DNA of 46,616 nucleotides from an uncultured Rubrobacteraceae bacterium. GTDB lineage: Bacteria; Actinomycetota; Rubrobacteria; Rubrobacterales; Rubrobacteraceae. The stretch spans positions 1-46,616 of the forward strand of contig CADCUT010000048.1 in assembly GCA_902805975.1 (NCBI GenBank). The letters are read 5' to 3'. The translations under genes were made by a program, and so were the position numbers. Shown one piece after another: positions 1 through 8,576 of this stretch (positions are counted from its first letter, which is position 1; the number at the start of each line of letters is the position of its first letter). The notes under the pieces were generated by a model. It made no database searches and was not told the DNA's origin. It saw only the letters and a program-made list of their open reading frames with translations.

Positions 1-2270
1 GTGAACTCGACCGTGACCTCGCGCTCGGCGAGCTGCTTGCGGAAGCGCTTGACCTGGACCTCGATGATCTCGCGCATCTGGGCGCGCTCGAGCTTGTGGA
101 AGACGATGATCTCGTCGATCCTGTTCAGGAGCTCCGGGCGGAAGATCTTGCGGAGCTCGCTCGTCACGCGGCCCTTCATCTCCTTGTAGGAGAGCCCCTC
201 CTCGCCCCCGCCAAAGCCCAGGGACTGCGTCTTGTTGATCGTCTGCGCCCCGACGTTTGAGGTCATGATGATCACAACGTTCTTGAAGTCCACGCTGCGC
301 CCTTGGGCGTCGGTGAGCTGGCCGTCCTCGAGAATCTGCAACATGATGTTGAAGACGTCCGGGTGGGCCTTCTCGATCTCGTCGAAGAGGACGACGCTGT
401 ACGGCCTACGCCTGACCTTCTCGGTGAGCTGCCCACCCTCATCGTAGCCGACGTATCCGGGCGGCGAACCGACCAGACGGCTGACCGTGTGGCGCTCCAT
501 GTACTCGGACATGTCGAGCCGGATCATGGACTCCTGGTCGCCGAAGAGGTACTCGGCGAGGGTCCTCGCGAGCTCCGTCTTACCGACGCCCGTGGGGCCG
601 AGGAAGACGAACGAGCCTGAGGGCCTGTTCGGGTCCTTGATGCCGGCGAAGGTGCGGCGGATGGAGCGGGAGACGGCCTTGATGGCCTCGTTCTGCCCGA
701 CCACGCGGCCGTGCAGGGCGTCCTCCATCTGCAGGAGCCTCGCGGACTCCTCCTCGGTCATCTTCTTGACCGGGATGCCCGTCCACATCGAGACGATCTC
801 GGCGATCTCGTTCTCACCGATGGAGACCCGCTTCTCCTCGACCTTGCCCTCGCGCCAGGCCTTCTCGAGCTCGCGCCGCTGGGCGACGAGCTTGCGCTCG
901 GAATCGCGGAAGCGGGCGGCCTTCTCGAACTCCTGGCCGTCTATGGCCGCTTCCTTCTCCGTGCGGACCTGGGTGAGCTCCTCGTCGATCTCGCGGTAGT
1001 ACGGCGGCGAGGACATGGTCTTGATCCTCATCTTGGAAGCCGCCTCATCCACGAGGTCTATGGCCTTGTCCGGCAGGAACCTGTCGGCTATGTACCGGTC
1101 GCCGAGCTGCGACGCGGCCTTCAAAGCCTCGTCGGTGATGTCGATGTTGTGGTGCTCCTCGTACTTCTCCCTGAGGCCCTTGAGGATAAGCTCCGTCTCC
1201 TCGACCGACGGCTCGCCGACCTGGATCGTCTGGAAGCGCCGCTCGAGCGCCTTGTCCTTCTCGACGTATTTGCGGTACTCGTCGATGGTCGTGGCGCCGA
1301 TGACCTGGATCTCACCTCGCGCCAGCGCCGGCTTCAGGATGGAAGCGGCGTCGATCGCGCCCTCGGCCGCACCCGCGCCGACGAGGTTGTGGATCTCATC
1401 GATGAAAAGGATGATGTCGCCGTGGTCGGTGATCTCCTTCATTATCTTCTTGAGCCGCTCCTCGAACTCGCCGCGGTACTTGGAGCCCGCGACCAGCGCG
1501 CCTAAGTCGAGCGTGTAGACCTCTTTGTTGGCGAGGATGTCAGGGACGCGGTCCTCGGCGATCTCCTCCGCGAGCCCCTCGACGATGGCGGTCTTGCCGA
1601 CGCCGGGCTCGCCGATGATGACGGGGTTGTTCTTGGTGCGGCGAACGAGGATCTGCATGATGCGCGCGATCTCATCACTCCGCCCGATGACCGGGTCGAG
1701 CTTCTCCTCCTCGGCGTACGCCGTGAGGTTCCGCCCGTACTGGTCGAGCTGGCGGGTCTTGGGCCGCTTGGCCTCGACCCCACCGCGGCCTCCGGCCGCC
1801 GCCTCGCCGCCGGCCCCACCCCGGCTCCTGCCGCGACCGCCGCCGAGACGCCTGACGACCTCGCGCCTGACCTTGTCCGGGTCCACATCGAGGTTGGAGA
1901 GCACGCGTGCGGCGACGCCCTCGGACTCGCGCACCAGCCCGAGCAGGATGTGCTCGGTGCCGATGTAGTTGTGGCCGAGCTGGAGGGCTTCCCTGAGCGC
2001 GAGCTCTAAGACTTTCTTGGAGCGCGGGGTGAACGGGGCCTGGGCGCCGGTCCCCTCCTCGCCGTACCCGACGATGCTCTCGACCTGCTCGCGCACCTCA
2101 TCGAGGGTCACGTTCAGGGAGGAGAGCGCCTGGGCGGCCACACCCTCGTCCTCGCGAAGGAGGCCGAGGAGCAGGTGCTCGGTGCCTATGTAGTTGTGGT
2201 TGAAGTGACGGGCTTCGTCCTGCGCGAGCACCACGACCTTACGGGCCCGCTCCGTGAATCGTTCGAACAT
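1..2270 (-). CDS. clpC: ATP-dependent Clp protease ATP-binding subunit ClpC (3' end outside window)
   Basis: Hsp100 unfoldase that feeds substrates to ClpP. About 756 residues are visible from the ATG at 2270; the window edge removes the C-terminal end. The N-domain (two Clp repeats, each with a GTEHLLLGL-type motif) spans about residues 1-137. It is followed by a Gly/Arg-rich linker at about 138-162, then AAA+ module D1 with Walker A GEPGVGKT near residue 220 and Walker B LFIDEIH. A coiled-coil middle domain follows, then module D2 with GPTGVGKT near residue 558 and [18 protein letters not shown] Shine-Dalgarno sits 9 nt before the ATG. No ctsR, mcsA or mcsB precedes it, unlike in Bacillus. 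One segment of the N-domain (2022-2138) is about 97% identical at DNA level to part of the gene at 6309-7649. Confidence 0.97.
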
Positions 2271-5823: not shown

Positions 5824-6312
5824 CTACAGGCCCTCCCCGTACTCCCGTATCCCCGTCAGGTCAGCGGACGCCAGCAGACCCGCCACCGCGCCGCGGCCCG
5901 GAATATACAGGTCCGGGTCGAGGTCCGCGAGGCCCCGCAGGTTGAAGGCGCGGCCCGTTCCCGGGTGCGGCACCTGAAAGTCCGGCGTCTCCAAGACCTC
6001 ATCCCCGAAGAGCAGCACGTCGACGTCTACGGTGCGGGGCGCCTTCTCCCCCTTGCGCTCCCGCCCGAGAGCCGCCTCCACTCCCTGGCAGTAACGCAAC
6101 AGTTCGACCGCCGGTACCCCGCACTCTAGCTCGACGGCGCAGTTCAGGTAATCTGGCTGCTCCCCCTCCACCTCGACCGGAGCCGTCTCGTAGACGTTGG
6201 ATACGTCTACGAGCGCCATCGCAGGTCCGCGCCCGAGTGCGTCGACGGCGTTCCGCAGGTACCCCAGGCGGTCGCCGAGGTTGCTGCCGAGGCTCAAGAA
6301 GGCGCGGGTCAC
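5824..6312 (-). CDS. folK: 2-amino-4-hydroxy-6-hydroxymethyldihydropteridine diphosphokinase
   Basis: Transfers pyrophosphate from ATP to 6-hydroxymethyl-7,8-dihydropterin, supplying FolP. The 162-residue length is normal. LSLGSNLGDR near the N-terminus is the pterin/ATP-site signature. PRTVDVDVLLFG carries the two Mg-binding aspartates (Asp96 and Asp98), and VPHPGTGRAF gives His116 and Arg121. The GTG start overlaps the stop codon of the preceding ClpN-FolB fusion gene in a GTGA junction, so the two are translationally coupled. Confidence 0.96.
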   Translation of the reverse strand: MTRAFLSLGSNLGDRLGYLRNAVDALGRGPAMALVDVSNVYETAPVEVEGEQPDYLNCAVELECGVPAVELLRYCQGVEAALGRERKGEKAPRTVDVDVLLFGDEVLETPDFQVPHPGTGRAFNLRGLADLDPDLYIPGRGAVAGLLASADLTGIREYGEGL

Positions 6313-7649
6313 CGGCGGAAGGTCGCCGACACGGACACGCTGGGCGACGGGACTTCCCGGGTCACCGTCACCGTGACCTCTTGTATGCTCGGGATCTCCC
6401 CCAGCAACAGGTCGCCCGTCAGCCCGACCACCGCCTCTGGCGGAGACGGCTCGCGGGCCTCAAGTAACCTCCCCACGAGGTCCGAGATCTCGTCGTGGCT
6501 CAAGGTCTCAAAGCCGTCCGGGCCCTCCCGCGCGACGTGGTACGCGTAGTCGAGGTCGACGACCACCGGCACCCGCATCCCCGGTTCCTCCACGCGGGGG
6601 TGCGAGGTCCCCGCCCTGATACCACGGACTCTCCCCCGGAATAGCTCTACTGACGACTCCCCTGTCCCCGGCTCGATCCCGGCCCTCTCGGGAAGCCCGC
6701 TTACGACCTCGCCCCGGATCCCGTCCGGATCTACGTCCAGGTTCAAGAAAACCCGGGCCGCAACACCCTCCGTCTCACGCGCGAGACCCAACAAAACGTG
6801 CTCGGCGCCTATAAAGTCGTCGCCGAGCTGCAGCGACTCCCGCTCGGCGAGTTGCAAGATCTTCTTGGCGCGCGGGGTGAACGGGGCCTGGACGACGGTC
6901 CCCTCCTCGCCGTACCCGACGATGCTCTCGACCTGCCCGCGCACCTCATCGAGGGTCACGTTCAGGGAGGAGAGCGCCCGGGCGGCAACGCCTTCTCTAT
7001 CGGCCAGCAGGCCCAACAAGAGGTGCTCGGTGCCCACGTAGTTGTGGTCGAAGCGGCGGGCCTCGTCCCGCGCGAGCGCCACGACCCTCCGCCCGTGCCC
7101 GGTCAACTTGTGTAGCGAGGTCTGGTCCTCGCGCGGTTGACGGCCGAAGGACCTCCGCAGCACCTCCCGCGTCCGTTCCAGGCGTCCCTGCCCCTCCCGC
7201 GTTTCGGGGCGCGACGTCTCCCCCAGCCGCCCGACGACCTCCCGGCGCACCGCCTCCGGGTCCGCGCCCAGGTTCGAAAGCGTCCTCGCGGCCACGCCTT
7301 CGGGCTCGCGCAGGAGGCCGAGCAGCAGGTGCTCGGTCCCGATGTGGTTGTGGCCCATGCCCATCGCCTCCTTGAGGGAGGCCTCGAGGACGGCCTTGGA
7401 GCGCTGCGTAAAGGGAACCTGTCCGCCCGCCTCCCTCTCCCCGTGGCCGACGATGCCCTCCACCTGCCCCCGTGCCCCATCCAGGGTGACGCCGGTAGCC
7501 GCCAGCGCCTGGGCCGCAACACCCTCTCCCTCACGGATCAAACCCAGCAGAAGGTGTTCCGTACCGACGTGATCGTGCCGGAGACGCCCGGACTCTTCCT
7601 GGGCCAGCACCATGACCTTGCGTGACCGTTCGGTGAACCGCTCGAACAT
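6309..7649 (-). CDS. ClpN-repeat protein fused to a FolB (dihydroneopterin aldolase)-like domain
   Basis: A 446-residue protein of two parts. Residues 1-320 contain four Clp repeats (two tandem Clp N-domains), each with a GTEHLLLGL or GAEHVLLGL motif, and no AAA+ module follows. Residues about 333-446 read like a FolB/DHNA domain: an RGIRAG strand, a VVVDLDYAY strand, a LSHDEISDLVGRLLE helix and a terminal QEVTVTVTRE strand. It sits between folP and folK, where folB normally lies. By alignment from memory, the four DHNA catalytic positions are replaced: the HGV-loop Glu, the Tyr of the YAEL-type motif (here His), the Glu of LIE-type motifs (here Gly) and the final Lys (here Arg). The ATG start resembles that of clpC. 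The gene starts 69 nt after folP and overlaps folK by 4 nt. The ClpN part is certain; the FolB part is a family assignment by eye. Confidence 0.75.
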   Translation of the reverse strand: MFERFTERSRKVMVLAQEESGRLRHDHVGTEHLLLGLIREGEGVAAQALAATGVTLDGARGQVEGIVGHGEREAGGQVPFTQRSKAVLEASLKEAMGMGHNHIGTEHLLLGLLREPEGVAARTLSNLGADPEAVRREVVGRLGETSRPETREGQGRLERTREVLRRSFGRQPREDQTSLHKLTGHGRRVVALARDEARRFDHNYVGTEHLLLGLLADREGVAARALSSLNVTLDEVRGQVESIVGYGEEGTVVQAPFTPRAKKILQLAERESLQLGDDFIGAEHVLLGLARETEGVAARVFLNLDVDPDGIRGEVVSGLPERAGIEPGTGESSVELFRGRVRGIRAGTSHPRVEEPGMRVPVVVDLDYAYHVAREGPDGFETLSHDEISDLVGRLLEAREPSPPEAVVGLTGDLLLGEIPSIQEVTVTVTREVPSPSVSVSATFRR

Positions 7650-7718
7650 CTCCGCCAGACCTCCTCCACGCCCCCGCGACGGGTTCAGTCTAACCCGTCA
7701 CGAAAAGCACCGATGGTT

Positions 7719-8576
7719 TCAGGCCGACAGGATCGACCCGGCCACGGCGAGCGCCTCCCGGTTGGCCCTGACGTCGTGGACCCTGAAGAGGCTGGCGCCC
7801 CGCTCGTAGCCGAGGACCGTGGTCGCCACCGTGCCGAAGACCCGATTCTTCGCCTCCTCTGCCCCCGTGATGGTGCCGATGAACCTCTTGCGCGAAGCCC
7901 CGAGGAGAACCGGAAACCCGAGATCCACGATAGCCTCCAGGTGCCGGATCAGCGCGAGGTTGTGCCCGAGAGTCTTGCCGAAGCCTATCCCGGGGTCGAG
8001 GATGATGTTCCCCGCGTCCACGCCCGCCGAGATCGCATGCTCCGCGCGTCCGGCGAGGAAGTCCCGAACCTCGCGCACCACGTCCTCGTAATGGGGCTCC
8101 CTCTGCATGGTCTTCGGCTCGCCGAGCATGTGCATCAGGACGACGGGGCAGCCGGCGTCGGCCACGAGCCGGGCCATGCGCGGGTCGCCCCGCAGCGCGG
8201 TAACGTCGTTGATGATGCGGGCCCCGGCTTCGAGGGCCGCTTCGGCGCTCCGGGCGCGGTAGGTGTCGACGGAGACGACAGTTTCGGGGCGGGCTTTCAG
8301 GATCTTCCGTACGACCGGGACGACCCGGCGAAGCTCCTCTTCTTCCGTTACAGGATCCGAGCCGGGACGCGTGGACTCGCCGCCGACGTCCACGACGTCC
8401 GCACCCTCATCGAGAAGGACCTCCGCGCGGCGGGCGGCTGTCTCGGGGTTGGGGTAGTCGCCGCCGTCGGAGAAGGAGTCGGGGGTTACGTTCAGGATGC
8501 CAAAGAGGAGAGGGCCGGGTCCCCGTAGCGGGTTCCCGGCCCTCTCCCGTAGTCGCGCCGCGGGTTCGCGGTCCAC
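7719..8576 (-). CDS. folP: Dihydropteroate synthase
   Basis: Condenses the FolK product with p-aminobenzoate to dihydropteroate; the target of sulfonamides. The 285-residue TIM-barrel protein shows NVTPDSFSDGG at residues 29-39, DVGGESTRPG, SVDTYRA, a pterin-site DPGIGFGKT and a sulfate/PABA-site GASRKRFIG. The GTG start at 8576 follows the ftsH stop codon by 1 nt (TAGCGTG), so coupling to ftsH is likely. The first 22 residues before the core strand look like a short, poorly conserved extension. Confidence 0.96.
   Translation of the reverse strand: MDREPAARLRERAGNPLRGPGPLLFGILNVTPDSFSDGGDYPNPETAARRAEVLLDEGADVVDVGGESTRPGSDPVTEEEELRRVVPVVRKILKARPETVVSVDTYRARSAEAALEAGARIINDVTALRGDPRMARLVADAGCPVVLMHMLGEPKTMQREPHYEDVVREVRDFLAGRAEHAISAGVDAGNIILDPGIGFGKTLGHNLALIRHLEAIVDLGFPVLLGASRKRFIGTITGAEEAKNRVFGTVATTVLGYERGASLFRVHDVRANREALAVAGSILSA

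Follow-up and report, generated by a model that had tools for sequence, protein, structure and literature searches.

What is encoded between folP and folK in an uncultured member of the Rubrobacteraceae, and does the product still act as a FolB aldolase (DHNA)? The gene lies in a stretch of 46,616 nucleotides, here called the window (GenBank assembly GCA_902805975.1, contig CADCUT010000048.1). A first-pass annotation, made from the sequence alone, had described a single frame joining four Clp repeats to a FolB-like domain, flanked by folP and folK and overlapping the latter, in which the catalytic residues of the aldolase were apparently lost.

Architecture of the ClpN-FolB fusion

The frame runs uninterrupted from ATG to TGA at 6309-7649 of the minus strand and encodes a protein of 446 aa, with a Shine-Dalgarno sequence, GGAGGAGG (7660..7667, minus strand), 10 nt 5' of the ATG. 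Upstream, at a distance of 69 nt, lies folP (7719..8576, minus strand; Pterin_bind match of 291 bits), and on the other side the gene shares a 4-bp GTGA stop/start overlap (6309..6312, minus strand) with folK (5824..6312, minus strand; HPPK match of 106 bits). It thus takes the FolB position of the order folP-folB-folK, within a cluster that reads hpt-ftsH-folP-X-folK-coaX-greA-lysS-clpC, X being the fusion gene. A Pfam search with the full protein returned four Clp_N matches (213.4 bits, E 3e-64) and a weak FolB match (15 bits, E 0.037), and the C-terminus alone reached 18.6 bits (E 0.0028), both below the 31.8-bit cut-off of the FolB family. No other domain was detected by Pfam, neither an AAA+ motor nor a MecA or ClpS-like adaptor domain. 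The single frame and its flanks were therefore as first described. The same ClpN-ClpN-FolB architecture occurs in G008, a nearly closed sister genome of two contigs (L107:7999-9360, 453 aa, 56% identity to the window protein across the full length), and an assembly artefact was ruled out on this ground.

The four Clp_N repeats, which belong to PF02861, correspond to two whole ClpC-type N-terminal domains (NTDs) and not to four separate units. NTD 1, with two of the repeats, covers residues 1-145 (7215..7649, minus strand), and NTD 2 residues 179-323 (6681..7115, minus strand). Both retain the pArg-site glutamates E31 and E106 together with F80, T81 and K85, and of the residues that contact CymA (F2, F80 and E89) NTD 1 keeps all three and NTD 2 only F80, with F2 changed to L and E89 to Q. 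These position labels follow the Mtb ClpC1 NTD, which served for numbering and for nothing else. The roles of the residues in the pArg site and in the hydrophobic groove follow published work on the ClpC NTD (PMC12583610, PMC10030653).

The C-terminal domain (residues 336-446; 6312..6644, minus strand) was modelled with AF2 from an alignment with 18 relatives (pLDDT 83). Used as query against the PDB, the model found DHNA in 29 of the 30 best matches, with a TM-score of about 0.76 (8evk, 7su6, 1sql), the remaining one being the related dihydroneopterin triphosphate epimerase. A profile built from six degenerate domains, canonical FolB left out, likewise retrieved uricase and DHNA from the PDB, both of them T-fold proteins. 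The structure thus confirms the DHNA assignment, for which the first-pass annotation had cited the gene's position in support. In the full-length model the domains are confident and the linkers are of low confidence (pTM 0.42), so that the domain arrangement cannot be read from it.

In the numbering used for S. aureus and M. tuberculosis, the active site of FolB comprises Glu22, Tyr54, Glu74 and Lys100/99, and the M. tuberculosis enzyme cannot do without Tyr54 and Lys99 (PMC11328599). The window domain does not carry all four. Tyr54 is replaced by His and Lys100 by Arg; Glu74 is kept, as it is in every relative aligned, the column being invariant; and position 22 is ambiguous because its loop has been remodelled, although one alignment places a Glu there. 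In the other dead relatives this loop is deleted. The earlier statement that all four positions differ therefore goes too far, as it holds for Tyr54 and Lys100 and fails for Glu74. Judged by these replacements, the domain has very probably lost its aldolase activity, as had been proposed. It resembles DHNA FolB (PF02152, TIGR00525) in its T-fold, in its position between folP and folK and in Glu74, and orthologous proteins of the same slot keep all four residues, but it differs from that family in its score below the Pfam cut-off, in matching none of the NCBIfam folB models and in the loss of Tyr54 and Lys100.

The folP-folK slot and the canonical FolB

We read the slot in 31 fol loci of Rubrobacteraceae, taken mostly from fragmented MAGs. 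Two NTDs followed by a dead FolB were present in the window genome (G000) and G008, and one NTD with a dead FolB in G007, G017, G015, G010 and G003, in which the G010 frame is broken within the NTD, G015 ends at a contig end and G003 is partly masked. One NTD joined to a FolB with all four catalytic residues was found in G024, G033, G034 and G036, and an intact FolB without attached NTD in G028, G031 and G035. The slot gene is frameshifted in G030, is cut by the contig in G002, and is missing from the remaining 15 loci (G005, G006, G009, G011, G013, G018-G023, G025-G027 and G038). The unfused FolB of G031 exceeds the TIGR00525 cut-off. The reverse of what the window shows is seen in G035 (L167:2736-3589), where the ClpN frame is broken and the FolB downstream of it starts from a separate ATG and retains every catalytic residue.

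Orthologues with the catalytic residues, which the first-pass annotation had named as evidence against its own reading, thus exist both as fusions (four genomes) and unfused (three genomes). The loss is therefore secondary and lineage-specific, and the claim stands for the window genome and not for the slot as a whole. ClpN and FolB decay independently of each other along the series. In the locus tree empty and filled slots are near sisters, so loss must have been repeated.

The search for a second, intact folB that had been suggested was successful: a canonical folB (117.9 bits) is present elsewhere in the window genome, and also in most other genomes of the series. None was found in G028, G031, G033, G035 and G036, all five of which have an intact slot FolB, and the assembly of G028 consists of only two contigs. 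In G003 and G026, both fragmented assemblies, neither a canonical folB nor an intact slot FolB was detected. An intact slot FolB therefore occurs in 5 of the 7 genomes without the canonical gene vs 2 of the 23 with it (Fisher test, kinship ignored; p-value: 0.003). The slot FolB is intact where it is the sole FolB found; in genomes with a canonical FolB it is, with few exceptions, dead or absent.

FolB trees separate the slot FolBs from the canonical ones, each group being a clade by itself, and the intact slot FolBs join the FolB of family f15, which is located in the order folP-folB-folK without ClpN. From this topology the canonical copy would be a replacement for the FolB originally resident in the slot. 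ClpN was absent from the slot-type FolB of f15 in the two nearest relatives, and in a sample of the phylum it was found beside none of 46 FolB loci of other families (20 of them picked mostly for long FolB frames). Weak FolB matches in G034 (C529) and G012 (C179) were considered as further fusions and rejected, as they were read as urate oxidases, which are T-fold proteins. Such weak matches of urate oxidases to the FolB family (L105:4037-4942(-) and L106:3980-4921(-), in reverse-complement coordinates) reflect the common T-fold and can mislead a search for FolB.

Gene conversion with clpC and selection on the two parts

The NTDs of the fusion share 68-73% identity with that of the resident clpC (1854..2270, minus strand), which lies 4-5 kb away in the same cluster and on the same strand and is the presumed donor, so that the ClpN module probably derives from it. 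NTD trees, in which resolution is poor and gene conversion interferes, did not support a single origin of the module (0% of bootstrap trees). A stretch of about 110 bp in NTD 2 (6867..6978, minus strand) is a gene-conversion tract with clpC (counterpart at 2019..2130, minus strand). It includes an exact match of 41 bp (6938-6978, corresponding to 2090-2130), shows 97-98% nucleotide identity to clpC in its core windows with flanks of about 70%, and matches its own clpC at 40 consecutive polymorphic third positions (permutation test; p-value: 5e-5). Over this stretch NTD 2 resembles the resident clpC more closely than does clpC from the sister G008. NTD 2 of G008 may carry a similar tract (p-value: 0.0004 for all sites, 0.011 for third positions). 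NTD 1 of the window gave no conversion signal (p-value: 0.64), and its conservation is therefore its own.

The slot NTD of G034 is also unusually near its own clpC (pS 0.16, over only 56 codons). The clpC NTD of this genome (L215:4280-4538, contig C220) lacks residues of about 36-83, with a frame change there, and the slot NTD is almost identical to the remainder of this adjoining broken copy; either recombination between both copies or an assembly collapse would account for the defect.

Selection on the two parts was compared by pN/pS ratios, which are rough because identity between the FolB domains is as low as 27-34% and synonymous sites approach saturation. For the FolB domain the ratio was 0.82 (G000-G008) and 1.01 (G008-G007) in the window clade, 0.26-0.29 between closely related intact pairs in g12 and 0.40 in the more distant pair G033-G034. 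The dead pair G007-G015 gave 0.42, so some dead FolBs remain constrained. Between G000 and G008 the ratio was 0.22 for folK, 0.44 for the last NTD and about 0.35 for NTD 1 (pN 0.20, pS 0.57), and in most pairs the NTDs and folK fell at about 0.2-0.45. In NTD 2, conversion from a constrained clpC can mimic purifying selection.

Competing readings and known relatives

We see an even chance that the gene is a replaced FolB in decay whose ClpC-like domains are still retained, possibly as a decoy of the ClpC2 type. An ancestral folB in the fol locus of Rubrobacteraceae would have gained a copy of the clpC NTD at its 5' end, as sequence and position suggest. The early fused protein would have been a working DHNA, of the form that persists as the sole FolB found in several genomes, and the second, canonical folB, whose presence here is observed, may then have made the fusion redundant. 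In the window lineage the FolB part has lost Tyr54 and Lys100 and drifts near neutrality, and the ClpC-like NTD has been doubled, retained by purifying selection and partly refreshed by conversion from clpC. With a drifting FolB part and retained, doubled NTDs, the present product would most likely act, if at all, through its two motorless ClpC NTDs, in which the pArg site and most of the groove are conserved, binding some ClpC clients, adaptors or toxins without degrading them, as a ClpC2-like sponge. The T-fold remnant may serve at most as a multimerisation tag. A stronger version, in which the dead T-fold assembles the protein into oligomers and presents the tandem ClpC NTDs as a multivalent decoy or sensor of ClpC from the folate operon, with NTDs matched to ClpC by gene conversion, we consider improbable. 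Any function of the fusion is dispensable, because the near sister G005 has lost the gene.

The absence from G005 also keeps another explanation not far behind the sponge: a non-functional relic, replaced by the canonical FolB, in which only an open frame for translational coupling to folK is selected and the likeness to ClpN is maintained by conversion from clpC. Possible, if doubtful, this account fits the near-neutral drift of the FolB domain, the GTGA overlap, the tract in NTD 2, the absence of the whole gene from the sisters G005, G006 and G011, and the frameshifts of the slot genes in G010, G030 and G035, although these breaks, like that in clpC of G034, may be assembly errors. It does not explain why NTD 1 should be constrained without conversion, why the NTD was duplicated and retained in both G000 and G008, or why the Shine-Dalgarno sequence is strong. 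The six dead FolB domains are moreover free of stop codons, for which the neutral probability is about 2e-4; for the window genome, however, the open frame is weak evidence, as the probability for the window pair alone is about 0.06.

Adaptors and substrates bind ClpC at its NTDs (PMC12583610), and clpC and the fol genes share one cluster, so the NTDs or the FolB remnant might deliver certain substrates to ClpCP, possibly folate enzymes. Against such a ClpC adaptor stand the Pfam result, with Clp_N and FolB only, and the independent loss of FolB and ClpN. From established biology, moreover, an isolated ClpC NTD should compete with ClpC, not recruit it. We regard recruitment, which corresponds to the Clp adaptor first suggested, as possible but quite unlikely. 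The other initial suggestion, a pseudo-enzyme that regulates or scaffolds FolP and FolK, would suit the location between their genes and the retention of Glu74 and of the fold. However, the FolB domain is nearly unconstrained in the window clade, the slot is empty in many relatives, FolB survives without ClpN and ClpN with a dead FolB, and near sisters have lost the whole gene; this proposal finds no support beyond position and is very unlikely. Least credible of all is that the domain still works as a DHNA or epimerase despite its altered residues: Glu74 and a possible Glu near position 22 would favour it, but both residues essential in M. tuberculosis FolB are replaced and the genome has a canonical FolB.

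The nearest known parallel to a decoy is mycobacterial ClpC2, which binds CymA (cyclomarin A) and slows casein degradation by ClpC1P (PMC10030653). Like ClpC2, the fusion has a motorless domain resembling the ClpC1 NTD, with F2, F80 and E89 kept in NTD 1. ClpC2 represses its own promoter and has a dimerisation domain at its N-terminus (PMC10030653); no such domain was found in the fusion, where NTD 1 begins at residue 1, and nothing in it corresponds to the part of ClpC2 for DNA binding and autorepression, the partner being a C-terminal dead FolB within a folate operon. From ClpC itself the fusion differs by the missing AAA+ motor, the tandem NTDs and the junction to FolB. FolB is likewise joined to other domains in the eukaryotic FolB-FolK-FolP protein (PMC4224340), which unites folate enzymes, whereas the window protein brings in a domain of proteolysis. 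No ClpN-FolB fusion turned up in the literature searched, and we consider the architecture new, assembled from known parts.

The locus provides, within one bacterial family, a natural series in which a receptor for protease substrates was fused to a metabolic enzyme, the enzyme was replaced and the parts met separate fates. Should the ClpC NTDs prove functional, decoys of ClpC that lack a motor would be more widespread and more varied than mycobacterial ClpC2, with a bearing on antibiotics and BacPROTACs directed against the ClpC1 NTD. For annotation, the gene between folP and folK in Rubrobacteraceae genomes should not be named folB by position.

In Actinobacteria, fusion of ClpN pairs to DNA-binding domains seems to be a recurrent event. 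Three motorless ClpN pairs (L067:1625-2305, L068:520-1233 and L072:4628-5545) have N-termini that, by eye, resemble small DNA-binding domains of the ribbon-helix-helix type, and proteins at four other loci (L070, L074, L076 and L077) resemble those of the ClpC2 type with an HTH-like N-terminus. The window genome encodes another motorless ClpN protein, in a frame of 202 aa (G000:C105:16661-17134; L029).
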